A DNA stretch of 64,000 nucleotides from Cheilinus undulatus (Eukaryota > Chordata > Actinopteri > Labriformes > Labridae). The DNA is taken from positions 19,000,196-19,064,195 of the forward strand of contig NC_054873.1 of assembly GCF_018320785.1 (NCBI RefSeq), in the 5' to 3' direction. The notes beneath the pieces are model-generated. The model made no database searches, was not told the DNA's origin, and worked only from the letters and a program-made list of their open reading frames with translations. Each line of letters begins with the position of its first letter. Position 1 is the stretch's first letter. The position numbers and the translations under genes are program-made. Shown in pieces: positions 17,861 to 60,700 of this stretch.

Positions 17861-18890
17861 ATTCTAAAATCAAAACTCAGTAATAGTTTGATGTACTTTT
17901 CACAACCAAAATGAGGCAACTGTTAGCTAGCATGCTAGCACCAATGCTACTGACCTAATGCTTGCATCGACATCATCAATCAGTCATAGTTGGGGAGGAC
18001 CTATTCTCCGGGGTTTATCAGGTGCCAAGCCAGTTCTGTGGGCTGCCCTGCCAGTGGTAGTTACATTTTCACATATACGACTGTTTTTGGTGCATTTGTT
18101 AGTCCTTCAGTTATTCACGCCTTGTCTGAAGTCTTGGATTCAAGGTGCATCTCTGAAAGTTGGAAACCTCCTGGCTGTAAAGTAAACCATTTTCTGCCAG
18201 AATATTTTTGTCACTAATGAAGACCCTCCTGCAAAATCCCAGTGATTCAATACTGCCACAAACTCTTCTTAAGGGACCTCACAGAGCAACAAGTCTTGAA
18301 ACAGTGCCCAGAAATATCAAGCCTGCCCAAATGAGCTTCAAATCTGCTTTTAATCCTTGCCTTCACCCTTAATCTTTGCCTGCTTCAAGACCTCTGGTCC
18401 ACATTAATATGTAAATGGTACAAACTAATATGTTATGACTGCGTCAGCTTAAACATGCTGCAAAAGCCTGATAACCAAACCGTAACAAAGCCACAACAAA
18501 TCAAGTCATAGCATCTTTGGGTCTATTAGAATTTAATTTGTCCCAAAGTGTTTCCATTATGTACCTCTGTGGTGGATAAATCTGTCTAGTCAAAGATACT
18601 GAACAAAAGTTGAAGCTGATTAAGGCGAGAAAGTTGGAAATTAGTGATGTCATGTGCAAAGCAAGCCAATCTTATGTGCAGGGCATAACAGAAAAAAAAA
18701 ACTTCAAGTGTTGTTTTAGTGTCTGATCTCAGCATTTCACATTGACTCTAAAGGCTCCTGAATCATCTCATTAATACCACTTTAACTTTTTGTGAGACTT
18801 CGTAGTCGTGGGTTAATTTCAGCATTGAAACGCTGACCTCTTCTTTTCCTTCATTTACTTTGTTTGTCTCCACTCTTTATTTCTAGGATA

Positions 18891-20207
18891 ATGCATATCC
18901 TTCCCTACCTGGAACAAGAAGCCACCATGAGCAACGTCACGGTCACTGACAACACTGAACCCATCAGCCGCACCATGAGTCCGGCAACTCCCACCCCTTA
19001 TGCCTATCCAGTTAGTTTCCAGGTCTCCCTGACTGGCTTCCTCATGCTGGAAATCCTCCTGGGCCTGAGCTCTAACCTCACTGTGCTTGCCCTTTACTGT
19101 ATGAAGTCAAACCTCATTAGTTCCGTCAGCAACATTGTCACTATGAACCTCCACGTGTTGGATGTGCTGGTCTGTGTCTGCTGCATCCCCCTCACCATCG
19201 TAGTGGTGCTGCTCTCTCTGGAGGGTGACACGGCCCTCGTCTGCTGCTTCCACGAAGCTTGCGTCTCCTTTGCTAGTGTTGCTACCGCTGCTAATGTGCT
19301 TGCCATCACCCTGGATCGTTATGACATCTCCGTCAAGCCAGCCAACCGTGTGCTGACCATGGGCCGTGCCCTGGCCCTGCTGTCTGCCATCTGGGTGCTA
19401 TCCTTTATTAGTTTCTTGGTACCTTTTATTGAGGTAGGTTTCTTTGCACAGGGCCACGCTGAGCTGAACCAGACTGTGGTAGAGAATGTGGTCCATACTA
19501 ACCAGTACTACACAGAACTTGGCCTCTATTACCACTTGCTTGCCCAGATTCCTATTTTCTTCTTTACTGCTGTTGTCATGCTGATCACCTATTCAAAGAT
19601 CCTGCAGGCGCTCAACATCCGCATCGGCACGCGTTTCCATGCCTCACAGAAGAAAAAGGCTCGCAGGAAAAAGCGTCCATCCATGACAGCCATGACACCC
19701 CAGACAGAGGCAACAGACGGATCCCAGAGCAGTGGCAGCCGCAACCCTACGCTGGGCATGCGTACATCTGTCTCCGTCATCATTGCATTGCGCAGGGCTG
19801 TTAAGCGCCACAGAGAAAGGCGTGAGCGCCAAAAGAGGGTTTTTAGGATGTCCCTACTGATCGTATCAACCTTCCTGCTCTGCTGGACGCCGATTACAGT
19901 CCTCAACACAGTCATCTTAAGCGTGGGTCCCAGTGACCTCATGGTCAAGTTGAGACTGGGCTTCCTGGTCATGGCTTATGGGACGACAATCTTTCATCCT
20001 CTTCTGTATGCCTTCACGAGGCAGAAGTTCCAGAAAGTCTTGAAAAGCAAGATGAAGAAGCGAGTGGTGTCGATCATTGAGGCAGATCCTACTCCCAATA
20101 ACGCCATCATTCACAACTCCTGGATCGACCCAAAGAGGAATAAAAAGGTGACATTTGAGGACAAAGAGGCCCAACAGAAATGTCTGTCTTCTGAGGATGT
20201 GGAGTGA
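18891..20207 (+). CDS. gpr22: probable G-protein coupled receptor 22
   Basis: This single coding exon gives 438 residues (human GPR22 is 433) and encodes an orphan class A receptor of the plasma membrane, studied mainly in heart and brain. Seven hydrophobic segments are visible, starting near residue 45. DRY is at 142-144 in 'LDRYDISVKP', CWTP at 331-334 in TM6, and HPLLY replaces NPxxY at 369-373, as in the family. The very basic third loop (residues about 250-318, 'RRAVKRHRERRERQKRVF') and the C-terminal 'HNSWIDPKRNKK' are family hallmarks. N-glycosylation sequons occur at N15 and N193. An acceptor, 'ttctag', ends at 18886, four bases before the first ATG; a second in-frame ATG at 18927 has a stronger context (gccaccatga) and may be the real start, giving 426 residues. 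The second extracellular loop has no cysteine. Which teleost duplicate (a or b) this is cannot be decided here. Confidence 0.95.
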   Translation: MHILPYLEQEATMSNVTVTDNTEPISRTMSPATPTPYAYPVSFQVSLTGFLMLEILLGLSSNLTVLALYCMKSNLISSVSNIVTMNLHVLDVLVCVCCIPLTIVVVLLSLEGDTALVCCFHEACVSFASVATAANVLAITLDRYDISVKPANRVLTMGRALALLSAIWVLSFISFLVPFIEVGFFAQGHAELNQTVVENVVHTNQYYTELGLYYHLLAQIPIFFFTAVVMLITYSKILQALNIRIGTRFHASQKKKARRKKRPSMTAMTPQTEATDGSQSSGSRNPTLGMRTSVSVIIALRRAVKRHRERRERQKRVFRMSLLIVSTFLLCWTPITVLNTVILSVGPSDLMVKLRLGFLVMAYGTTIFHPLLYAFTRQKFQKVLKSKMKKRVVSIIEADPTPNNAIIHNSWIDPKRNKKVTFEDKEAQQKCLSSEDVE

Positions 20208-36091: not shown

Positions 36092-39000
36092 ATGTCATCT
36101 GGTAAGACTCAAAATTCAACTTTTTCATATTGTAACATGGATTTATGTTACCTAATTCTATTTTTACACTATACACTCAGAGGCTCAATTAGGGGCAAGA
36201 GTAAGATATGAAGAATTGTTTTAAACTCTGCAGCATATTAGGTTCATGCTCTGGATTAAAGATATGCTAATCTCCAACTTAATGGCTCTCAACTGATGAG
36301 TTGGAGCCAAAAACTGTGTTGTAAGGCTTTTTTCCAGTGGGTCACCACTGTGAAACTGGAAAAACTGTGGAAAATAATCCATGTAAGGAAGCCCTAAGCT
36401 GACATACATCATATTTTTCTCTGTTTTGCAATGAAATGAGAAGAGGCCTTTGTACAGGCCATTTTTGGTCAGAAATTGCAGCTAAAAAAGGATTATGATC
36501 TTACTTGTGTTTATCATGTTTGCACAATTTTGCCAGTATCTATTGTTTTATCATATCTGTCCATGTCATTCGAATTTGCTAAATAATAAAGATCAGAAAA
36601 ACAAAGTTCTGATGCCTTTCTTTTACTTGCTTCTCTTGAAAACTATACAGTGGTGTAAAAACAGCATTTAAGTGGTCAAAAGTATTCATCTATACACAAC
36701 CTGCCAAGTCATTTAGAGATCAGGCCAGTTTCAGGTTGGGCCATCATGGCTTGTACCTCCTAAAAAGTGGGTAATCATAAAAAAGTTTGGAAAACAGTGC
36801 TCTTGGTTATAAATGGGAAATAGAGTTAAATCAAATAAATGCATATTTTTATTAGGTTTCTGGAATGGTATGTTTTTAAAACATGGTTTTTGTCTGGTCT
36901 CTGTTAAATCTACCATCCAATAGATCCTCCTTAGAATAAACTGAATTTAAAAAAATCTTCTCTCCAATTTTTCCACAGTCAGTGTGTGTGAATCTGATAT
37001 CCAAGTAGGTCAAACCCTACTCAGCAGCTCCTTTGAGTACTCCATCCTGGAGTTTATTGGTGAAGGCTGTTTTGGCAAGGTGGCCAAGTGCCTGAACCTC
37101 CACACCAAAGAAACAGTAGCTGTGAAGATCCTCAAAAAGGACTCTGAATTCAGCGTGGACACCGAGAAAGAGGTTTGTACTTCAGCTCCTTTTATTATTA
37201 TGGCGTAACACATAAGACAGATTGGTTTTATTATCAGAGGACTCAGTGAAATAAACTGCGGTATGTCCTCTTTTCTCCCTAGGTGTCCATGTTGCAGGTT
37301 ATCTCTGCTCTCAATGCAGATGACACCCATCTGGTGAAATACTTTGAGCGGTTTGAGTACGAGGGACAAACCTGTCTGGTGTTCGAAATGCTGGACAGGA
37401 GTCTCTACGATCTGCTCGACGACAGAGACTGGAAACCCCTGTCTCTGAATGAGATCAGAGCCATTGCAAAGCAGCTCTTGCTTGCTCTAGATGCTCTAAG
37501 CAGCCTTGGTGTCCTGCACACGGACATAAAGCCTGACAACATTATGTTTGTCAGTTGGCAGGATCAGCCTTTCAAGATCAAACTGATAGACTTTGGAGAG
37601 GCCATCCATGTCTCAGAAATGCAGCCTGGTCTGGAGATTCAGCCAGCTGGATACAGGTACGTCTAGCCGGCTCAGTTCAGCAGTAAATACCCATTATGTT
37701 TCTATTTAACAGTCACTGTTCTTCTGTTACTTTAAGATTGGGAAAAATCTGTAAAATATACATTAATCATGAATGGGTGGAAGAATGTTTTTAATACTGT
37801 ACATTTCTATGTAAAACCTGCACTTTTGGTTCCTACTTTTTCTACAAATTGCAATTGGCTGCTTCGGCTTCTCTGCTTAGTACATGCTCATATACATAAG
37901 GACACAAACCAGACCAGCTAGGGTTGGTCCTTGTCCCCCTTGTTAGGTTAGGTCATAGATGTACATCCAGAGAAAGTGTGAAGTTTACCATTAAATGAAT
38001 AAACGATGTGGGGGCTGGTTTGACAGATGGGAACAAATATGCCATGGGGCACCAGATCAGCCAGGAGAAGTTTTTCAAAAAAAAGTTCCTGCAGCAGTAA
38101 GAGTGCAGCCTCTATGCACAATTTAACACAAAATGTAGAATTCAAATACTTTGTACTAAAACATCCAGATTTGGACCCTAACTGATGAACTGTTCTACTA
38201 AATCTACATGTATCGATTTAGATCTGGGGGCTTCATTACTCTTTAATGACATTTGTTTCTGTTTAAAATACACACAGTCACCAATCAGAAACCCAAAAAT
38301 ATCATCTGTTGAATCTCGTTCCTTCTCAGGGCTCCAGAAGTTGCTCTCGGTCTGCCTTTTAATGAACTGATCGATGTGTGGGGAGTTGGCTGCATCTTGG
38401 CCTTTCTCTTCCTGGCTGAGAACCTCTTTCCGGTCAACTGTGATTATCAAATGGTATGTTAGCGACCTCAGAAACAGTCTAGTTGTTAGTCTAGTCACAG
38501 AAACTCAGTTGATGGGATTTTTGTGTATTTTGTGTGCAGATGAAATGCATGGTGGAGGTTTTGGGTATGCCAGCAGAGCACCATCTCCATGAGGGAAAAT
38601 ACACCCGCTACTTCTTCACTGAAGAGGAGACTTCAGATGGGCCAACATGGAGGATGCTGGTACAGTAACCATGTTCTTTTATGACTTTAGTACTTACATC
38701 ACTTTAAATGAACCTGTTTTCAACATTTTCATGTGTTTTGTACTTTTAGACCTCTGACGAGTTTTCGTCTGTTAATGGCTACAAGGTACAGGACCGTAGT
38801 TACCCGGGCCTGCCGAGCTCACTGGACGCTCTAGTCAATGTATGTACTCTCTGCTGTTTGTAGACGCCTTCAGTACCAGGTATTTATCCGTCTTTATGAG
38901 GTTTAGAAGTTAGATGAACTGACATGAATCTGTTTCCAAATCCAGGTCCACCCAGAAGGGGACATGAACCAACAGGAGGACAGGAGGGTTTTTGTGGACC

Positions 39001-40099
39001 TCCTGAAGGGTCTGCTGCATCTTGATGGAAATCAGAGGCTCTCTGCTCGCCAAGCTCTGCAGCACCCTTTCATCACAATGAGCCACCTGGTGAATCCTAA
39101 AAGTGAAGCCTAGTAAGTGTAAATGCGTCTGTTCACAACTTCGACTATTTGAAACTGGCAATTACACACTACAGTTGAACAAAACATACAGTATGCACTG
39201 AATACTGCATTTGACAGTGGCATGTAGTATGACTGCCAGCTGGATGTAGTTTGGCAGTATGTTCACCCCAGCTTAGTTGGTTTCCAGTCTTAAAAAGACT
39301 GTGGATGTTGTCTGCAAACAAACTATTGGAAATGCTGTCTCAGCCTAGCTTTTGATTAAAAAAAGGTAAAGAGGTGGAACTGAGGTGGGCCTTAAGCCTC
39401 CTGGCAAAAAGGTAAAACCTGTCATTCAACTGAGTAATACCCAAACTACACTCTTTTATATACACTTTTAAGACTTAATAAAATCAAATATCTTCTGAGT
39501 TTGTAAACAGGCTGTAAACATGTTTATTCAGCTTTAAAAATGGGCATTCTAACATGAAACATGTGGATTTCATGGCTTTTAGAGACAGCCCTGAGTAGCT
39601 ATTTAAGGAATTGCAATTATATTTTCAAATAGGCTTCATCTTAAAGTGCCAAATGTTTCTGCTTGGTTCACACTTGTAGTGGACAACACGAGATAAAAAG
39701 GAGTGCTTGTTTTACTGAATGACTGATTTACTAACTTATTCTTATTCTCCACTTAGCCTGACAGCTGCCAAGAACCTCATGGCCTACCGCCAAGAGCCTG
39801 GCTCCAGTAACTTTGGCTCCCCCACTGCATCATGGGACGGAGCACTTGTCGATGACTCCTGGGAGGAAGATTCACTCTCATCCCATTCTGCCAAAGAAGA
39901 GCAAAGTTTCTATCATGAGACAGGCTCCTCTTCCTGGAGTGGAGATCCAACACATCTCTGGAATGAGGAAAGAACATCATCTGATGATGAGGACTGGGAT
40001 GAGAGCAATTCTTGTGTCTCCAAAGGAAAAGAGACCAATAATGCAGCTATTTTCGCTGTTAAAGAACATTTATCTTCTTGGGCGGGCGTTCAAGACTGA
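36092..40099 (+). CDS. HIPK-like protein kinase, eight coding exons
   Basis: Coding exons with consistent phases and GT-AG junctions: 36092-36101, 36979-37172, 37283-37656, 38330-38453, 38540-38659, 38750-38839, 38946-39112 and 39757-40099. They join into 473 residues. The first exon is only ten coding bases (MSS plus one base). Features: glycine loop 'IGEGCFGKV' (30-38), lysine K53 in 'VAVKIL', catalytic loop 'LHTDIKPDN' (146-154, base D149), DFG 171-173 in 'LIDFGEAIHVSE', APE 194-196 in 'GYRAPEVALGLPF', and a C-lobe ending 'ARQALQHPFI'. 'LIDFG', 'HVS' and 'YRAPE--LGLP' are hallmarks of homeodomain-interacting protein kinases, Ser/Thr/Tyr kinases of the CMGC group. HTD replaces the canonical HRD (HIPKs have HAD). 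It is much shorter than HIPK1-3 (about 1,200) and lacks their long C-terminal region, as in the short HIPK-like genes expanded in fish. The tail after residue 360 is acidic with repeated Trp-Ser motifs. The TGA at 40097-40099 is unusual; see the next entry. Confidence 0.88.
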
Positions 40100-40468
40100 A
40101 CTTGTCTCTTTAAAGAGGACAGCCCGGCTTTCAGTGATGAGAATAGTGCAGATGAGGTTCCTCCTCTTATTGATTGGGAGAATGAAGACTCCTGGTCCTC
40201 TGAAGACTCTCATACTCTGATCACCGATGGTAATGGAGTTCAACAGAGAGACACAGTTTCAACTGAGGGAGAAAAACCTTCCTGGTCAGTTAATGAAGAA
40301 CAGGAGGGTTGGTCTTGTGAGGAAGCAGAACCAGAAAAACCAGAACCCTCTGCCTCTGGATTCACAGCCTCCACTGGTGGCATGATAAACCGCCTAAAGC
40401 AGATAAGGAACTTCTTTAAGAGAGTTGCACTCAGCCTCTGCTGCTGCTGCTGCCATGGCGAGGATTGA
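40100..40468 (+). other. in-frame coding extension beyond the kinase TGA
   Basis: Directly after the TGA, in the same frame and same exon, 122 sense codons run without a stop to a TGA at 40466-40468. The composition continues the preceding tail: acidic, with Trp in Ser/acid context ('IDWENEDSWSSEDS', 'KPSWSVNEE', 'EGWSCEE'). It ends with a basic amphipathic stretch ('NRLKQIRNFFKRVALS') and five consecutive cysteines ('LCCCCCHGED'). No splice donor/acceptor pair that removes only the TGA is obvious. This is a formerly or actually translated C-terminus: either a recent Trp (TGG) to stop change, a sequence error, or stop-codon readthrough. The residue at the TGA is unknown. Confidence 0.75.
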
Positions 40469-40756
40469 TATGTTGTATTTTTCCATGTCAATTCTTGTAA
40501 ATTTTCAAATAAACTTTGCATTATTACCCTCAGAGGTAAAACTTTAAATGTTGTATTTTCCATGTCAATTTTGCTGTAAATTTTACATTATTACCCTTAG
40601 AGGTAAACTTTTAAATGTATTTTCCATGTCAATTTTCACATAAACTTTGCATTATTACCCTCAGAGGTAAACCTTGAAATGTTGTATTTTCCATGTCTAT
40701 TTTCACATAAACTGTGCTGTAAACTTTGCATTATTACCCTCAGAGGTAAACTAAAA
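40469..40756 (+). repeat. tandem repeat in the kinase 3' region with polyadenylation signals
   Basis: About four diverged units of roughly 65-85 bases share 'gcattattaccctcagaggt', 'aaatgttgtattttccatgt' and 'cacataaactttg'. The first unit contains AATAAA at 40508-40513, and further AATAAA-type signals follow near 40760. The array starts immediately after the downstream stop codon, so it forms most of the likely 3' untranslated region. Confidence 0.85.
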
Positions 40757-41339
40757 GAAAATAAAATATTCAATAAAAACTTAAATATGTTGTCACAGAC
40801 CTTTCTGCTTAACAAACAATAAGCTTTCGTGTCAAAAGAAAGAAGTTTCAGACTATAATCAATAACACACAATGTTCCAGCACCATTCAAAGTTCAAATC
40901 TGATTTTAAAGTGTCAGAAAGTGCTGCACATTAACACTGCCACTGGTGGATGACGTTCAGTCAGTTCCCCGATGGCTCCTCAAGTGTCAGAGTGAAACAT
41001 GCTGATGATGAGACTGTCATGCAAATATCACTGCAGACAATGAAAATTTCGAGCTACTGCTATCATTTTAAGCATGTAAGACCTAGGGAGCTCCTTACTG
41101 ACCTGGGACCCTGAGCAGTTGCCTGCTTGCCTTACCTGTTGACATGCAACATGTCTGTGTGAAAGTTAGGCATAATATCATCATTTGGTTTCATGAAGAT
41201 CATTGTGACTAGCTGCAAAGAGTAGTTTTTACTGTGCAGAACTTTTAGGTATGTTTGGGCTAAAAATTGAGGATGAAGTAAGGCGTGTAATGGTGAGCAA
41301 GCCCACCTGAGGCACCACTGGGTGGGAAGGAGGAGAAAC
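40757..41339. other. intergenic, no gene recognised
   Basis: Nothing recognisable was seen beyond polyadenylation-like signals near 40760 and 40775. Confidence 0.5.
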
Positions 41340-41490
41340 ACAACCCTGTGTGTGCTCTGGTTGTCCTTGCATTTTACCAGGGACTTGAGAAAATAACCTG
41401 TTGAAAAACTTACAAAGTCCACACCTTTAGGGCGAGGTAAGGGGTGGATGTGGAGCGTAAGCACGGTCTAAGATACCATCCAACGCAATA
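41340..41490 (+). repeat. dispersed repeat family 5, copy A
   Basis: It matches 53045-53185 in the same orientation: 'ggttgtccttgca'-like start, 'accaggga', 'gaaaataa-ctgtt', then 'taaggggtggatgt' and 'gtaagcacgg-ctaag'. The segment between these blocks differs in length. It is non-coding and of unknown class. Confidence 0.65.
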
Positions 41491-42349
41491 GTAGGAATGC
41501 CACAAGCCCTTGATCATGCTTTGGATGCCCCAGAGGGCCCAAAAAACGCTGGTGGTCGTTAGGCATATCACCAGGGGTGAAAAGGCTGGAGAAAAGAAAT
41601 GCCATCGAGCTTGACCTTGGATAATGAACAACACATGTCAACATGGGTTGAGCTTTATTTACCCTTCCTTTCTTCCCCCAGGCCTTGTGTTGAAAAAATG
41701 TTTATACCAAAGGCTGGTACCTACAATACTTGAGTCTATGATTCAGAGATGAGATACACAAATAGAGGCATTATTTCATTTATCGTTTTGAAAATTAACT
41801 GTGGTATTAAATCTAGGTCATATTTTTTAGCCAGTATCCTCAGTTTTTATGGTTACTGTGCATGCCCTGTTTACACAGCTGATACACCCACTTTAACTAA
41901 GGTGTCATGAAGTGATTCATCCTCTAAGTTCTCATTCTGCCTCCTCTTCTTAACCTAAAATACTTCCTGCTGTACATGAATCAGCAAATCATGGATCAAT
42001 GACCTGCTCTTGTATTTTAGTTTGGCCTAAATATGAATACAGTGTTGCTCTACATAAACCAGGTGTTGTTCTGACATTATCTTATGGTCCATTATTATAC
42101 ACTTCACTAATATACATGTAAATATAAAGTTTTTAAAGCATAAAACCATACATGCTGTGCTGATAAGAACATTAGCCTCTTGACAACTACATTTAAATTC
42201 TCATAACTTTTTTTTAAATTCAAAATGTTAACAACAACACCCCCTCACCTCGTCTTTCTGGAGCTCTCTGTGAAACTCAGCCCTCTATATTCATGCATCC
42301 TAAAATAGCGTTGCTGGGAAACAGTCTATAAAGCTATGATACTGCAAAT
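41491..42349. other. intergenic, no gene recognised
   Basis: I see no supported gene. Confidence 0.5.
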
Positions 42350-43340
42350 ATTTGAATTCACGATGAGGTCTTATTGTCATATTCAACAAGGTTTTATTAA
42401 GTTTGGACTCAGAAAAAGTCCCAGTGTGAAAGCCTCACGTACTCTTATTAGGCTTACCACTAAAAGATGACATATTACCCAAGTTTTAACATCTTTATGT
42501 TGGCTTCCTTTGTTTAATAATTGATTTTAAGATTTTACTTATCATTCTTAAGGCAGGTATGGGTCTGGCTCCAAGCTTTAAAACAGAATTATTGATCCCT
42601 GATGAGCTAGCCCAAACCCTCAAGTGGGGGCCCCATGGTTGTTCCAAAGTTGAGGGTTAAAACTATAACCTGGCACGCCAGATGGATTTGTTTCACACAT
42701 CCTTCTGGTAAACCACTCACAGACAGTGTTTGGGAAAGGGCAGTGCCTGTGAAAAAAACTTGGAGGGTTATGGGATGAACATTCTGTCTGTCACATCTTT
42801 ACAGGCCAATCAGAGCAACAAAACACATGACGTAGCCGCTACCAAGCTGAACCCCTACCAAAGGAGTAAACTCCATACAGAACTGCATAACACGAACCAT
42901 GGCGACTGTAGACATGTCAGTACACAACTTCTGTCGTTTTTGAAAAGAAAACAACTCAGTGCTGTTCTTTATTCTTCTTTTAATGAAAAAATGTCATCAA
43001 GTTCTGTTAAAACTGGCGCTTTAGCAGCATCCATACTTATGTCTTCTGCCATTATTGCACTGGCCTCTTGTTGCTGTTTGCTTACGTCACGACTCCACTG
43101 CACCCAAAAGTACTGCCCCTCGACACTGATTGGTCCTGTCACTTTTTAACCGGTACCAATCGCCAGTGGATTTGCCAGTGAGAAACAAGGAAACGGGCGA
43201 ATCCATCTGCTTTGCAAGGTTATCAAAACTAAAGGTGACAGAAGAACAGAGGAGGACTTTGGAACAACCTACCTGAGGAGATAAGGCGTGCAGGATCAGT
43301 AACATCTTTTAAGTCACTGCAAAACACTCATTTTTACTGA
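42350..43340 (+). pseudogene. L2/CR1-like LINE 3' fragment split by a TIR element
   Basis: The part left of 42667 carries decayed reverse-transcriptase C-terminal sequence ('HITQVLTSLCWLPL' near 42468-42510, then 'GSGSKL'). The part right of 43222 continues it ('KTKGDRRTEE', 'LWNNLPEEIRR'-like reading across frames at 43250-43285, then 'TSFKSL'). These are characteristic of the end of L2/CR1-type ORF2. The two halves join precisely if the 42668-43222 insertion and one copy of its target duplication are removed. The LINE is broken by stops and cannot be active. Confidence 0.65.
42668..43222 (+). mobile_element. TIR element family 2, copy 2
   Basis: The ends are inverted repeats: left 'taacctggcacgccagatgg' and right, in reverse complement, 'taaccttgcaaagcagatgg'. 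Both sides are flanked by aaaacta (42661-42667 and about 43225-43231), a likely target duplication of 7-8 bases. It is homologous to 4629-5757 without that copy's nested insertion. It is non-autonomous; the 139-codon open frame inside (42730-43149) is not transposase-like. Confidence 0.8.
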
Positions 43341-44640
43341 CTTGCTTTTATGTGATGTCATCTTCTTATTTGTTTTTTGTCTTCTGTATATTATTCAAAA
43401 TATTAGAATTCAATTTTCTCTTTAACTTGATTTTATTCCCTATTAACTTCAATGTATTTTATTGCACTTTTGGCTCATTTTAATTTCTACTGCCTTCCTC
43501 TCTTCAATGCTTGTATCTCTTCTAATGGTTTTATTTTTGTATACTTTTGCCATTTAATTATTAATTTTAACTGTTTATATTTACAGAGCTATTTTAATCT
43601 TAGTTTTACCTTTTATTTTGAATATTTTCACTGGCTCTTGTTCTGTTTCTCTTATCACATTTTACCCTCCTTTTATTTATTTTTTTAATCTCTGATAATA
43701 TTCATACCTTTTTGTTTTCTCTTTTGATCGTTCACATCTTCTTAAATCAAAAATTGTAACTTTTAACTTTTTTTAACTTTTAAATTTTTCTTTTTTACAG
43801 ATTTAAAAAGTGATTGGATGAATCAAGCACAGATGTTTATTAATTACTAGAGGTGGAAAAAGTAGAGGACTATCATACTAAAGAAAAAGTAGAATTACTT
43901 TGGTTAAAATTCACTTACTTTGAGAAAATACATTGCTCAAAAATTCCCTTACCAATGTGAGCATGACTGTTTGTAGCTCCATTAGTGACATGAATCAGCA
44001 AACACACATGAGACCAACGGAGCGCTCAGTGGTCCCACATGGACATGATGACACACCTGCTCACAAAAGAAGATAATACAGAGCATCAAGTAGATGGACT
44101 GACAGCAGATAGGTTTTGGATGCCCGGCCATTATATTAAAAAAGAACATGAGCCTGAAGGCAAAGCTTTCCGTTTACGAGTCAATTTATGTGCTAATTTT
44201 CAGCCATGATCATAAGCTTGGTTAGCGGCTGAAATGATAAGATTGTGTGTCCAGGCAGATGAAATGAATTTCGCTCGCAGGTCTTGTGTGCAGTCCCTCA
44301 GGGACAGACTGAGGAGCTGATGTATGTACATGAAAAATTCAAGTTTATAAACATCTCACTGTGGAGGTATTCTGCACACAAACAGACACGAGTAGAGCAT
44401 TTCTGCAAGAAAACTTAAAAGAGACTGTGCTGCCTTGTTTTCCTTGCAACATGAAGAAACTGGAAATACGTGTCAACTCCCAGCGGCCTACTTTAACTGT
44501 GCATTTGTTGGTGATACAGCATTTAAGGCATATAGAGAGTTTCATGTTCAAGATAGGATTTTTGCAGTGTTCAGCATGCTCACATTTTATGTCTGTCATG
44601 CAGCAACCCTTCTGTTATACACAAACCTCCTTGATTTTTA
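43341..44640. other. AT-rich intergenic, no gene recognised
   Basis: T-rich sequence (43330-43800) then unremarkable DNA. Open frames at 44361-44678 overlap others and have no family signature I can defend. Confidence 0.45.
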
Positions 44641-44654
44641 CAGATTTCAAAAAT

Positions 44655-44870
44655 TCCAGAGATGCACAAAAGGTTTAGAGATTTGTTTCTATTCCAGCAT
44701 GACTGTACCCCAGTGTGCAAAGCAAGGACTATACAGACATGGTTTGATGAGTTATGTGAGGAAGAACTTGACTTGCCTGCACAAATCCCTGACCTCAACA
44801 CAACTGAGCACCTTTGGGCTGAAATGGAACGGAGATTGCGAGCCAGACCTTCTCTCCAACATTAGTGCCT
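44655..44870 (+). pseudogene. Tc1/mariner-like transposase C-terminal fragment
   Basis: The plus-strand translation includes 'LFQHDCTPVCKARTIQTWFD', 'LPAQIPDLNTTEHLWAEMER' and 'RLRARPS'. 'FQHD-P', 'PDLN--EHLW' and the following basic helix are the last third of the Tc1 DDE domain. Only the C-terminal part survives; an N-terminal half was not recognised upstream. It is a third Tc1 lineage distinct from the copies at 7.3-8.3 and 12.2-12.9 kb. Confidence 0.8.
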
Positions 44871-44883
44871 GATTTCGGCTCTA

Positions 44884-45330
44884 CAGCAGTGGCTCTTTAC
44901 TGGTCTAGCCTTAGGACCCACCGATATCTTTGATGACAAATCGTGACCCACATTTCCAAAAAATTTCAACCATGCAAATTTAGTGATTTAAAATGTTTCA
45001 CTTAGGATCTTGGATGGAACATCTCTCTCCCCATGATAATATGTAGATTTTAGCCAGTTTTCCAGAGATCTTGAGAAATTACTTCATTGACATGCTAAAA
45101 GCAGCTCTTTTATTGCAAGAAAATGGGATAAAAAAGTTGAAATATTGATAAAACATTTAAATTCACCCATCATCACAATAAAACAGAGTAAAATAAACAG
45201 TATAGATGCATGTTCTTTATAGACTTTTGCCACCATTTTTTTCCAGACACACATTCGCAACCCACTGAAAACTGCTCCGTGACCCACTTTTGGGTCCTGA
45301 CCCGCAAGTTGAAGATGCCAAAGGGGGACC
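44884..45330. mobile_element. hAT-like non-autonomous element (putative)
   Basis: The left end 'cagtggctctttactggtct' with 'aggacccac' nearby is mirrored by the reverse complement of the right end, 'catcttcaacttgcgggtca' with 'ggacccaaa'. The phrases 'gacccac' and 'gtgacccac' recur inside. The layout resembles common fish hAT MITEs that start CAGTGGTTCT, but the duplication was not resolved. Confidence 0.45.
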
Positions 45331-47199
45331 AACTCCATATCAAAATGCATCACAGCCCCTGATGGTGAAACTTTTAGGCTTTTGACCCTATAATGTATTT
45401 CAATTTAATCAGTTTGGCCATCAACAACCAAATACTTCAAGAGTTGTTTTCCTCTCCAGTTGAGGATAGAGCTGGCAGTGTGCCACCTTCAACTTTGTAC
45501 AATTCTGCATCTGGATGTTATTTTGGCAAAATTAATGCAGGTAAATCAAAAAGAGAAATGGTTTGATTTTCATGCTCATGCTGCTGAGGTGAACCAGAGT
45601 GAAGATGCTGTATACATTGTACTCTATTGATGCTCTGGGACTCAACAGACTGCACTACTCCAGGATATTATGAACCAAAAAAAGATGGAGTTTACATCTG
45701 CGATCTAAACATTGCTCTGAAAAGGAGGCTGTTCCAGGGAAACGTTTAACACTAACCGCTGGCTTTATTGGAATCGCTGCAAAGTTCACATCTGTTCCCA
45801 GAGGTATTTATCGCTTATCAGGCAATGCTAAAAGATGATGGCTGATGGTTCCTGAGATTGGTGCTGCCTTCAAAAAGAACAACCCAGGGACCCAATGGAA
45901 GAAGAGGCTATAAATCATTCCCACTTTCCTCCCAATAACAAGGCCCATCCTGCCACATCAAGCAGTTGTATTGACAGTCAGTAAATAAAACGACAGAGCT
46001 CTTTGGTAAAAGCTTCCCACTGAGCGCACAGTCATTCTAGTCTGACCATCTGTGTTTTTTTTTGTTTTTTTTTTGCAGCCGTTTTGCTGTAATGACTCTC
46101 CAGTCTCCTGAGCTGCGACCTCTGAGATGCTGCGGAGAGGAGAGCAATCAGCGCCCATTCACTTGTGTTACAGTCATTTTACCCACACTCCAAAAAGCTA
46201 TCACTGTGCAGCTGTAAACATTTTTGCTCCTCAGCAATCCTGAGACTGGCAGTCAAAGAGGATAGCAGCTATCAGTTTCTTTCACAGAGGAAGCTCGTGT
46301 GAATACTCTGCAAGCTGAATTCAGTGGAGAGGGCGCGCAGGATACACACAACGGTCCTTGGAGCTGAAATGGAGCCTAAAAACATCATCTTTCAGGAGGC
46401 AGAGGAGTGTAATGTTGGCTGAAGATTTCCCTACCCTCTGCTGTTGAGATGCAATACCCCTCTTGCAATTTATTTGTGTATGAGCAGACTAAGCTGTTTG
46501 TGTTCGCCTCTAAAAGGCAAAAAACTGCAATCCTTTTGAGCCCTTTATGTAATGATAGAGCTTTTTGGAATAAGCCTTTTAAAACAAGACTATTTATATT
46601 CATCTGGTGTGTAAGCTGAGATCTTGATCCTGACTGCTGTCTGTCTGTATAAGAGCTCCTTTGCACACTCAGAATACCTGGATTAAATATACAGCAGTGC
46701 TAGAAAACCCTGCAAGACTTTCTTCTTCCTTCTCCTATGTGCAAAGCAGTATTGTATCATTGGTGAACACTGCCCTCTTGTGGGCATTTGTTTGGATTTT
46801 TGTGCATAAAATGTCCAATCAGAAAAGTTAACATATTCAAGATATTACAAGGGTGTGATCTATTTTATTTTACTGTAGGTGTGCATGTCTTTTAAGAGAA
46901 ATAAAAGACACCAAGTTAGCATTATTGTGAAAATACAGGGACTTCCCTTCTCCTTACATGACTATTTTTGTACCATGACATGTAATCTGAGAAGACAGCA
47001 GCAATCACACTCAGTCTCTCTCTCTTACATATATTATGGGAGGATAAGTGATCCTGGAGATTCCAGGACAAATATTGCTCTGATTCAGACCCAAAAGCAT
47101 TTGCTGTGTCTTTTCCTGAGCTGTGATGGATCAAAAGGGGTCTGACCAGGGGTTTTAGTTGAGTTTTTTTTAGGGCTGTAGCTCCTCAGATGCTCACTA
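45331..47199. other. intergenic, no gene recognised
   Basis: There is no supported gene. Poly-T tracts lie at about 46056-46074. The DUS4L gene that adjoins BCAP29 in mammals is not visible here. Confidence 0.5.
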
Positions 47200-57700: not shown

Positions 57701-60700
57701 ACAAGAAGTGATTATTCTATTGACTAATTAATGGACTGCAGTGTGTCTAGCACCCTTTAAGCCTGGTTAATATGACGGATAGACATTGTTCCAACACCGT
57801 GGTGACCCACACTGTTATGAGTCCTACATACTTGTGCACTGGTGTGTCTGCATCATACTGCAAGCCACATTTCCTGCTTGGTTGTGTACAGAAAACCAAG
57901 GTAACAGCAGCTGGCCTCAACATGTAGTTAGATTTTTTTTAAGAGATGCTACATGAGCTACAGTACATGTCTAGGCCTCTGGTATGGTTTGGGCTAAGTG
58001 GACCTACAGCATATTGATAAGAACAATCCATCTGGGTACTTTGACATAACAATGACGATCCATCCAAAACAAACGGCACTAAATGGGGAAAACTGGGACT
58101 TAAGTAACTTGAAAGCTTAAAATACAAAAAACTGTACAATTTAACAGTTACAGAAGACCCAAGTGAGGCAAGTGAGTTGCGCATAAAGTTCTTACTTCTC
58201 TGAAAAAAGACTGGCATAATATTATAAAATAAACAGAGTTATGTGTATATACACTTGACTGTCAGAAGAAACTGGAAGCCTGACCATAACTAAGGATGTT
58301 TCCAAGCGTCTACCCTATTTGACTAAATGCTCATTTAAATTTCTTTTGACTAGTTTAAAGTTGAAAAAACCCCTAGAAAACAGTCAAATTCGTCCCAGGG
58401 TCATTGTGTCAGCAGGTGTGATGTTAGCCTGATATACTCTCTACAGCATGGCTAACAATATAGCGCCACCTGCCTTCGTTCTTCTTTGTAGATTAATATT
58501 GTGCTTTGATGTGTGGCTTCTTTTCACTTCAGGTGAGTATTTATGTGTGAGTTCAACTCTTGACAGCCTACATACCACTTTATTTCCATTTACTACTTAA
58601 AACTGTCATACTGCGCTATTCCTGCTTACACGCTAACCTCTTAGTCACTGCCGGGCTTCTCATATTTAAATCCGGTGAAGTGCCAGACAGGAAAGCAGCG
58701 GCCTCTAGTGGCGGGAGGTTCATTACAGTTTAAAAGTGCATTATAGACCTGGATTTCAAGCCTGTGATTATAAAAAATTATAAAGTTATTAGTTTAAACA
58801 ACTCGTAAATCCCATGCTGGCTAATTCGATAAACTAATTTAACCGTTTTACCGATTAACTGCGCACATCCCAAACCATAACACCAACAGGAACATCCTGG
58901 AAGGCTCTCCACAAGATTGGTGGGCTTGTTTTTCTTCAAAATGGTGATTTTGTACTGCTTTTATCAACACTACAGTGTAGATTTGACACAGAGAACAAAT
59001 CAATCTTTAGGGTGGGATAGGTAATACCCTTACAGAGGGGTGCAGAAAAATAGGATTGTGTAGATCGTTATTTTGGTACCTCTCCCATCTTTTGACAGTG
59101 AAAACTGGACTGTTTGATGGAAAGGCAGCTTAAGTGGATCATGTGCACAGAATACTGAAAATGGTTCTCACCAAGGGTGCGAGTAGCTAAGGTGTGAATT
59201 CCAAGAGCAAGGGATTTTAGCTCCGGCTTAATACACCTACAAGCACAAGACAGAGAGGTTAAAAAAGACTCAACTTTTACTCTGGAACATAGACATTTAT
59301 TGATTTTGTACTGGAAAAAGTAATAAAAAGTCTTAGAAATAACACTCCACTGATGATATGTTTGAAGGTAAAATTGCTTATGAAAGCTTCAAGGCAAACT
59401 TCAGATTGTTCTCTTTTCAATTACTCATGACGCATTTTATCAGATGATACTGTATCCTGTGAAAGTGCAAGAAAAATATAACAGCAGGAATTTCAATCTG
59501 TCCAAGAATGAGCAGATGATATATTGCTTTAAGAAAGGAACGAGTCAACTGATGCCATTGTTTTTCACACAGGTCCACACAAATTTTTTTCCCAACAAAC
59601 CTGACTAGCAGAACAAAGCCAGGTGTTCCCCCCAGAGAGATGATGAAGGAGCTGACCACAGACAGAGCCAGGAAGTATGGAAATATTTTGTCACAGCTGT
59701 CTCTGCGTGGACACTGGCCCAGAGTGGCTGTCAGGTTGCCGGTAGGGTTTTCAGCCAGCGATATACAAGTGCAATTATTAAAAACCTGCAAAGAGTCAGT
59801 AATAAGTAATAAGTCATTGATAAAAGGCAGATCTACATAGGTAAATAATTCTGCAACACACCCTGAGCACCATGTGCTACATTGCAGATATCAGCAGATG
59901 TCGTGTCCATAAAGTTTGCATGATAAAACAAATGTTTGCTGGACCCCACTGGCTGGAAATAAAATCAGTCATATTTATATTATTTTCTCTCAGTTACCAG
60001 TTATCACTTAATAAATTATTTTATCATCTACCCTGTAAATTTTAGTTTCCCCTTGTAAATAGTATCACATTTTGTGCTTTTATTTTGAATGCCGAGAAAC
60101 AGAAGTGCAGAACAGGCGAGCATTTGATGCAATATAGAACTCCAAATGTTGTATTCACTCAACTCCCTCAACAGTAAAATAAGTAATCAAGCCCCTTATG
60201 TATGTCTGACCGTGTTTCTGCCAGATCCAATGGACGAGGTGCATCCGGCCCAACAAGGAGACATGTACGTGATCCCATTCTCTCCGCACACTGGATCCCA
60301 TTCTCTCTTTGAGCACAAGCATCCTGAGTTACAGTTGGAGAGGAGAGACTGCTCCTGATAAGACAGGCCTTCCAATCTGTGTGCGACAACACGAAGAAAA
60401 TGCATATTTTATCGACAGCTCAAATGAAAAATGCATCAAATAGGAAGCCACTATCATTACCGTGCATGGAATATCAAAGCAAATGTTACTGAGAAAAAAG
60501 GCAGTATTCACAAAACCTATTACCTATTCCACTTAGATTCAAGAATAAAGTGTCTAGACTTTACAAACCCAGTGTATGAAACTGTGATGCCCGCCACCTT
60601 GGAGTTCTCACAGCCCATAGCTAAGAAGAAAAGTGAAAAGAAGTAGCCCAGTAAGGAGGTCCCAAATGCAAATTTGGCTGCTTCCATGATGCCAAGCTTA

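Follow-up and report, generated by a model that had tools for sequence, protein, structure and literature searches.

The last exon of a HIPK-like kinase gene in the wrasse Cheilinus undulatus is cut by an in-frame TGA that is probably a nonsense mutation of recent origin, either fixed or segregating; the kinase that it strikes is otherwise intact and has no close copy in the genome. The 122 sense codons that stay open behind this TGA are, judging from the homology of their translation, the ancestral C-terminus of the protein and no new extension. The window analysed here is a stretch of 64,000 nucleotides (contig NC_054873.1, positions 19,000,196 to 19,064,195 of the forward strand), and all positions below refer to it unless another locus is named. 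GAC TGA ACT stands at 40094-40102, with the premature stop, placed by sequence and reading frame, at 40097..40099 on the forward strand; the next stop in that frame, a TGA at 40466-40468 (forward strand) taken to be the ancestral stop codon, is followed by AATAAA at 40508, 40760 and 40772. The 122 codons of the ancestral tail thus occupy 40100..40465 on the forward strand. The initial annotation had reported an in-frame TGA and the 122 open codons behind it in the final exon of a HIPK-like kinase, and both its positions and its frame were confirmed.

The reading frame at the TGA is fixed by the upstream kinase exons. The rebuilt gene, a predicted model, has eight exons over 36092-40468 of the forward strand, with GT/AG boundaries throughout and all exons joining in one frame. 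Exon 1 (36092..36101) comprises 10 bases, ATG TCA TCT G followed by GTAAGA, in frame with exon 2 and with a predicted start; exon 2 (36979..37172), which has a canonical acceptor and donor and HIPK2 homology, encodes the glycine-rich loop and the VAVK lysine. The HTD catalytic loop and DFG lie in exon 3 (37283..37656; Pfam PF00069, E 4.5e-18) and the APE motif in exon 4 (38330..38453), the latter being delimited by canonical splice sites and the HIPK2 alignment. Exons 5 (38540..38659), 6 (38750..38839) and 7 (38946..39112) follow from the gene model and the HIPK2 alignment, with the kinase domain ending in exon 7, and the part of exon 8 before the TGA (39757..40096) encodes a Ser/acidic/Trp tail of 113 whole codons. 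Counted from the predicted start codon, the product up to the TGA has 473 residues. Among solved kinases its kinase domain is nearest to HIPK: HIPK2 takes the first two places among the structure matches and HIPK3 the third (E 2.4e-83 to 4.9e-79), followed by DYRK3 (5.1e-44), and the VAVK, HTD, DFG and APE motifs are all there. Up to the TGA the kinase is intact in reading frame, catalytic motifs and its seven canonical introns, and no second lesion, be it a stop, a frameshift or splice-site decay, was found in the eight exons, including the 122 codons after the TGA.

The length of the open stretch had been presented in the initial annotation as improbable in random DNA, and this holds for one given place, where the chance of 122 open codons is 0.0003 with the window composition and 0.0012 with the local composition. 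Nevertheless, at least 122 open codons follow 25 of the 6,948 stop codons on both strands of the window, a count that includes real coding DNA; because real genes enter that count, open length alone proves little, and the claim stands as suggestive rather than as proof. The similar Trp-Ser/acidic style noted on the two sides of the TGA holds roughly, in that Ser, Glu and Trp are all common in both, with percentages that differ: Ser 18.6%, Glu 10.6% and Trp 5.3% in the 113 residues before the TGA, as against 12.3%, 13.9% and 3.3% in the 122 residues after it. Codon usage was set aside as coding evidence, since it did not single out the post-TGA frame (0.049) among the frames, the pre-TGA tail scoring 0.063, the +1 frame of the post-TGA stretch 0.14 and two of its antisense frames 0.13 and 0.14. 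The real evidence for coding past the TGA is the homology of the downstream peptide, not the open length.

When the tail alone (residues 361-596) was searched against 5.8 billion proteins, 440 candidates were returned, none at E<=0.001; homology surfaced only in direct comparison with homologues selected by the kinase part, a search which gave 550 proteins, the best 120 of which were compared (those with names are all from fish). In this comparison the post-TGA peptide matched P0001 of Notolabrus celidotus (phmmer E 3e-11), P0026 of Siniperca chuatsi (4.4e-9) and P0068 of Notolabrus (5.7e-8), and 11 proteins among the best 25 of 70 rows reached E<0.01, a level that no match attained in any of 50 shuffles of the peptide. 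The tail before the TGA gave no match at E<0.01 among 25 of 28 rows against the same 120 homologues (best 0.47), so conservation is stronger behind the TGA than ahead of it. What is conserved is the end, a basic stretch, a Cys cluster and an acidic end, as in fish HIPK1/2-like proteins. This C-terminal module, a basic stretch with CCCCC at 40364..40453 on the forward strand (residues 89-118 of the post-TGA peptide), aligns in the window as INRLKQIRNFFKRVALSLCCCCCHGED, in P0001 as NRAMKRIRRFFKRVKTTFCCCCPVEDD and in P0026 as KYMLKRIRRFFSQITANFCCCWCPAVED, in an alignment made from 25 homologues chosen from the 120, of which P0003 entered with its first 485 residues only.

Of the 120 homologues, 22 conform to a strict text pattern for the module. 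A profile drawn from 19 homologues of the full set, picked by eye and with the window left out, ranked the post-TGA frame first of 2,854 open stretches in the window (E 5.6e-10, the next being 0.04) and recovered the module in 52 of the 120 homologues and at the very end in 49, the 19 source proteins being counted in both figures. Across 61 other loci, mostly short pieces of kinase genes and so of little weight as a comparison, the profile found nothing convincing, the best being a single 18-codon match at E 0.071; two further matches among these loci were the window's own sequence. The basic and Cys module stands at the end of the frame in the window as in the teleost HIPK1/2-like expansion, though beyond the TGA, and homologues read on past the point of the TGA and share the downstream sequence. 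Since the post-TGA peptide is homologous to the C-termini of the family, the TGA is premature. Fish HIPK-like kinases seem to have a conserved C-terminal module that resembles a membrane tether; in its composition, the basic, Cys-rich end looks like a polybasic and palmitoylation tether.

The genome itself holds a paralogue with an unbroken tail. A genome search with the post-TGA peptide returned the peptide itself and one weak match on C21 (E 0.84). HIPK-like kinase exons lie upstream of this match, which closes an uninterrupted stop-to-stop stretch of 255 codons, or some 245 if the count begins at the likely acceptor site. This stretch ends KMLKRLRSFFSRIAAPFCCCLRGEED, and its end matches the window with E 7.9e-5 in a search within the C21 locus. 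At 113 codons, the TGA and 122 codons, the last exon in the window is about equal in length to that of the C21 paralogue, and the similar length and module of the latter's unbroken tail argue that the window TGA is a premature stop in an old coding exon. DNA copies of the last exon were not found elsewhere in the genome, where the only two matches besides the window were to the repeat in the 3' UTR, and no gene-conversion donor or recent duplicate of the exon was seen in that search. Nor was a close copy of exon 3 found among the best candidates, the only ones scored, the next best reaching 54% identity over 123 residues, or 65% over 63. With no close paralogue found, nothing points to a recent duplicate that could stand in for the window gene.

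The repeat just mentioned is a tandem array at 40496..40717 on the forward strand (67 bases x 3.4) in the presumed 3' UTR, and a stretch 92.5% identical to it over about 160 bases is carried at C4:31219970-31220080. No convincing kinase match was found in 3.1 kb around this copy (best E 0.017), and the repeat may therefore be part of a dispersed element. The same genome also has HIPK-like kinase domains in tandem within single open frames of 945 to 1,807 codons, three per frame at C19:12306263-12309778 and C7:10668716-10672234 and two per frame at C2:17560481-17562682 and C10:43861000-43863222, apparently with no introns between the domains. P0001 of Notolabrus, with two kinase domains, looks like these frames.

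In a kinase tree built from the window and 60 homologues, the most identical among the 117 that had over 230 residues aligned, the window kinase groups with that of Notolabrus, also a wrasse (support 97/96, the bootstrap not being fully settled). Its branch length is 0.28, as compared with 0.25 plus 0.03-0.05 for the sister pair, and this similarity gives no sign of released constraint on the kinase. P0014 and P0020 of Notolabrus celidotus, the nearest proteins in the tree, have a basic C-terminus without the Cys cluster, which suggests that the putative tether has undergone change in further lineages as well.

Several other accounts of the TGA have to be weighed against a nonsense mutation. 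It is unlikely that the assembly is at fault, through a base error or a haplotype artefact, and that the real gene has a sense codon there and makes a normal full-length HIPK-like kinase: a gene otherwise faultless, with its ancestral C-terminus and stop preserved, is what such an error would leave, yet the site lies outside any homopolymer and the Cheilinus undulatus assembly is chromosome-scale, its 24 chromosomes and contig N50 of 16.5 Mb being given in Table 3 of PMC12223197. There is likewise little probability that the whole gene is a pseudogene with the TGA as its first visible lesion. The gene's own protein is absent among the best 120 of the 550 homologues, where the best identity is 76% and partial, even though another Cheilinus undulatus protein, P0079, is in the database, and this absence suggests, for this gene, either a pseudogene annotation or none. 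The GPR22-like gene of the window was taken as a control for whether proteins annotated in this species are in the database, but it is no guide to this, because the clusters are at 90% identity and its best representative comes from another fish. Against a pseudogene stand the 473 intact codons, the seven canonical introns, the presence of every catalytic motif that was sought and a kinase branch of ordinary length; no further disabling change or splice-site decay was found in the eight exons. The GPR22-like receptor itself is encoded in one open frame at 18837-20204 of the window and is 97% identical to a fish GPR22-like cluster representative, P0121; a probable organic anion transporter (OATP) exon lies at 59420-59890 on the reverse strand (Pfam E 2e-11). 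The TGA might also belong to an in-frame intron within the last exon, such as the 309 bases at 39807-40115, which alternative splicing would remove from the main transcript. By weight matrices, the donor of this GT-AG pair scores -0.7 and beats the gene's weakest real donor (-1.2), and its acceptor scores 2.7, just under the weakest real acceptor (2.8); but when the codons of the exon were shuffled 1,000 times, 654 shuffles held an equal or better pair, so the splice pair over the TGA is no better than chance, and we consider such an intron highly improbable. The stretch GACTGAACTTGTCTCTTTAAAG at 40094-40115, which holds the TGA, resembles a branch point, a pyrimidine tract and an AG.

Translation through the TGA would require recoding of one kind or another. 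In regulated readthrough, the TGA would be decoded part of the time and a fraction of the kinase would gain a probable membrane-tethering tail, an account that the 122 open codons and the intact module would fit. A targeting signal in the extension is a pattern known for LDHB, for which PMC4359377 describes a readthrough extension carrying such a signal; the same paper gives UGA CUA as the readthrough consensus. A fold spanning the TGA (40040-40140) was also more stable than most shuffled versions (z -1.81; 9 of 200 did as well). The stop context, however, is UGA ACU and not the leaky UGA CUA, as had been correctly read in the initial annotation, and three stretches immediately behind the TGA do not fold more stably than shuffled sequence (z 0.83, -0.21 and 0.03), which leaves readthrough, raised there as an alternative, with neither the leaky context nor a stimulatory structure just downstream as positive evidence. 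Moreover, the tail of the C21 paralogue is free of stops and the annotated homologous proteins run on to the module, so no conserved leaky stop is visible at this distance. We therefore regard regulated readthrough as very unlikely, and give scarcely more than a slim chance to its variant in which a lineage-specific stop acts as a switch, most of the kinase ending at the TGA as a soluble protein and a small readthrough share being membrane-tethered; if that were true, readthrough would set where the kinase acts. Selenocysteine at the TGA has next to no probability, its sole support being that the codon is TGA. The SECIS search that the initial annotation had recommended returned nothing: SECIS was not among nine Rfam matches at E<=10 over 39700-46000, no Rfam match reached the gathering score over the whole window, and a custom scan of 40100-43500 found no SECIS-like helices, a looser first pattern having given 19 unvetted matches. 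Cys stands opposite the TGA in none of the six homologues with a letter there.

A young nonsense mutation, then, is the explanation that we favour, and the slight lean towards a recent mutation in the initial annotation is borne out by the ancestral nature of the region behind the TGA. In a neutral-decay simulation, the 5% point for 122 intact codons lay at 0.05-0.08 substitutions per site if 0.15 indels were allowed per substitution, and at 0.08-0.12 for 0.05, so that on an unselected tail the TGA would be young. Other observations count against the nonsense reading: many homologues have no such module (it is at the end in 49 of 120), the nearest relatives P0014 and P0020 have the basic end but no Cys cluster, codon usage does not favour the post-TGA frame, and continued translation would leave an intact post-TGA frame as well. 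As to the codon that was replaced, the suggestion of a TGG-to-TGA change found no backing, as Trp stands opposite the TGA in 0 of 6 homologues in a loose alignment. The residues there are E, V, G, P, S and T in six of eight homologues, the exact residue being uncertain in so loose an alignment (P0020 has a gap at the TGA, and P0033 was trimmed to almost nothing); around the site the window reads X-TCLFKED, P0026 V-TCSYDED and P0053 G-TCSYDKD. TGA can also arise in an ordinary way from CGA, through a CpG change.

The nonsense mutation would hit the last exon and leave an mRNA with no exon junction past the TGA. Junction-dependent decay needs an exon junction past the stop and a stop in the last exon should escape it, so that this decay (NMD) should not act on the transcript. 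The likely product would be a 473-residue kinase with its catalytic domain intact and 122 C-terminal residues lost, including the basic, Cys-rich end by which the full-length protein is probably tethered to the membrane through lipidation. The case also carries a caution, for a long open frame past an in-frame TGA mimics recoding, while the simplest test, comparison of the post-stop peptide with the ends of related proteins, here reveals an old protein end. It offers one natural truncation for asking what the C-terminal module does.

The wrasse kinase can be set beside several known systems. With HIPK2 and HIPK3, for which there are solved structures (6p5s, 7ncf, 7o7i), it has the kinase domain in common (phmmer E 2.4e-83 for HIPK2), whereas in comparison with full-length mammalian HIPKs, given their length, the wrasse protein is much shorter and has almost no part ahead of the kinase on its N-terminal side. 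Teleost HIPK1/2-like kinases, such as P0014 and P0020 of Notolabrus celidotus, P0026 of Siniperca chuatsi and P0008 of Dicentrarchus labrax, are at most 71% identical to it in the kinase over 295 residues and share its Ser/acidic/Trp repeat-like tail and, in many cases, the basic and Cys C-terminal module; the annotated proteins run to their C-terminus, whereas the window frame is cut by the TGA 122 codons short. Last-exon nonsense alleles that escape nonsense-mediated decay form a known class, and they have the same arrangement as the wrasse gene, with a premature stop that has no later junction and an intact catalytic domain ahead of it.
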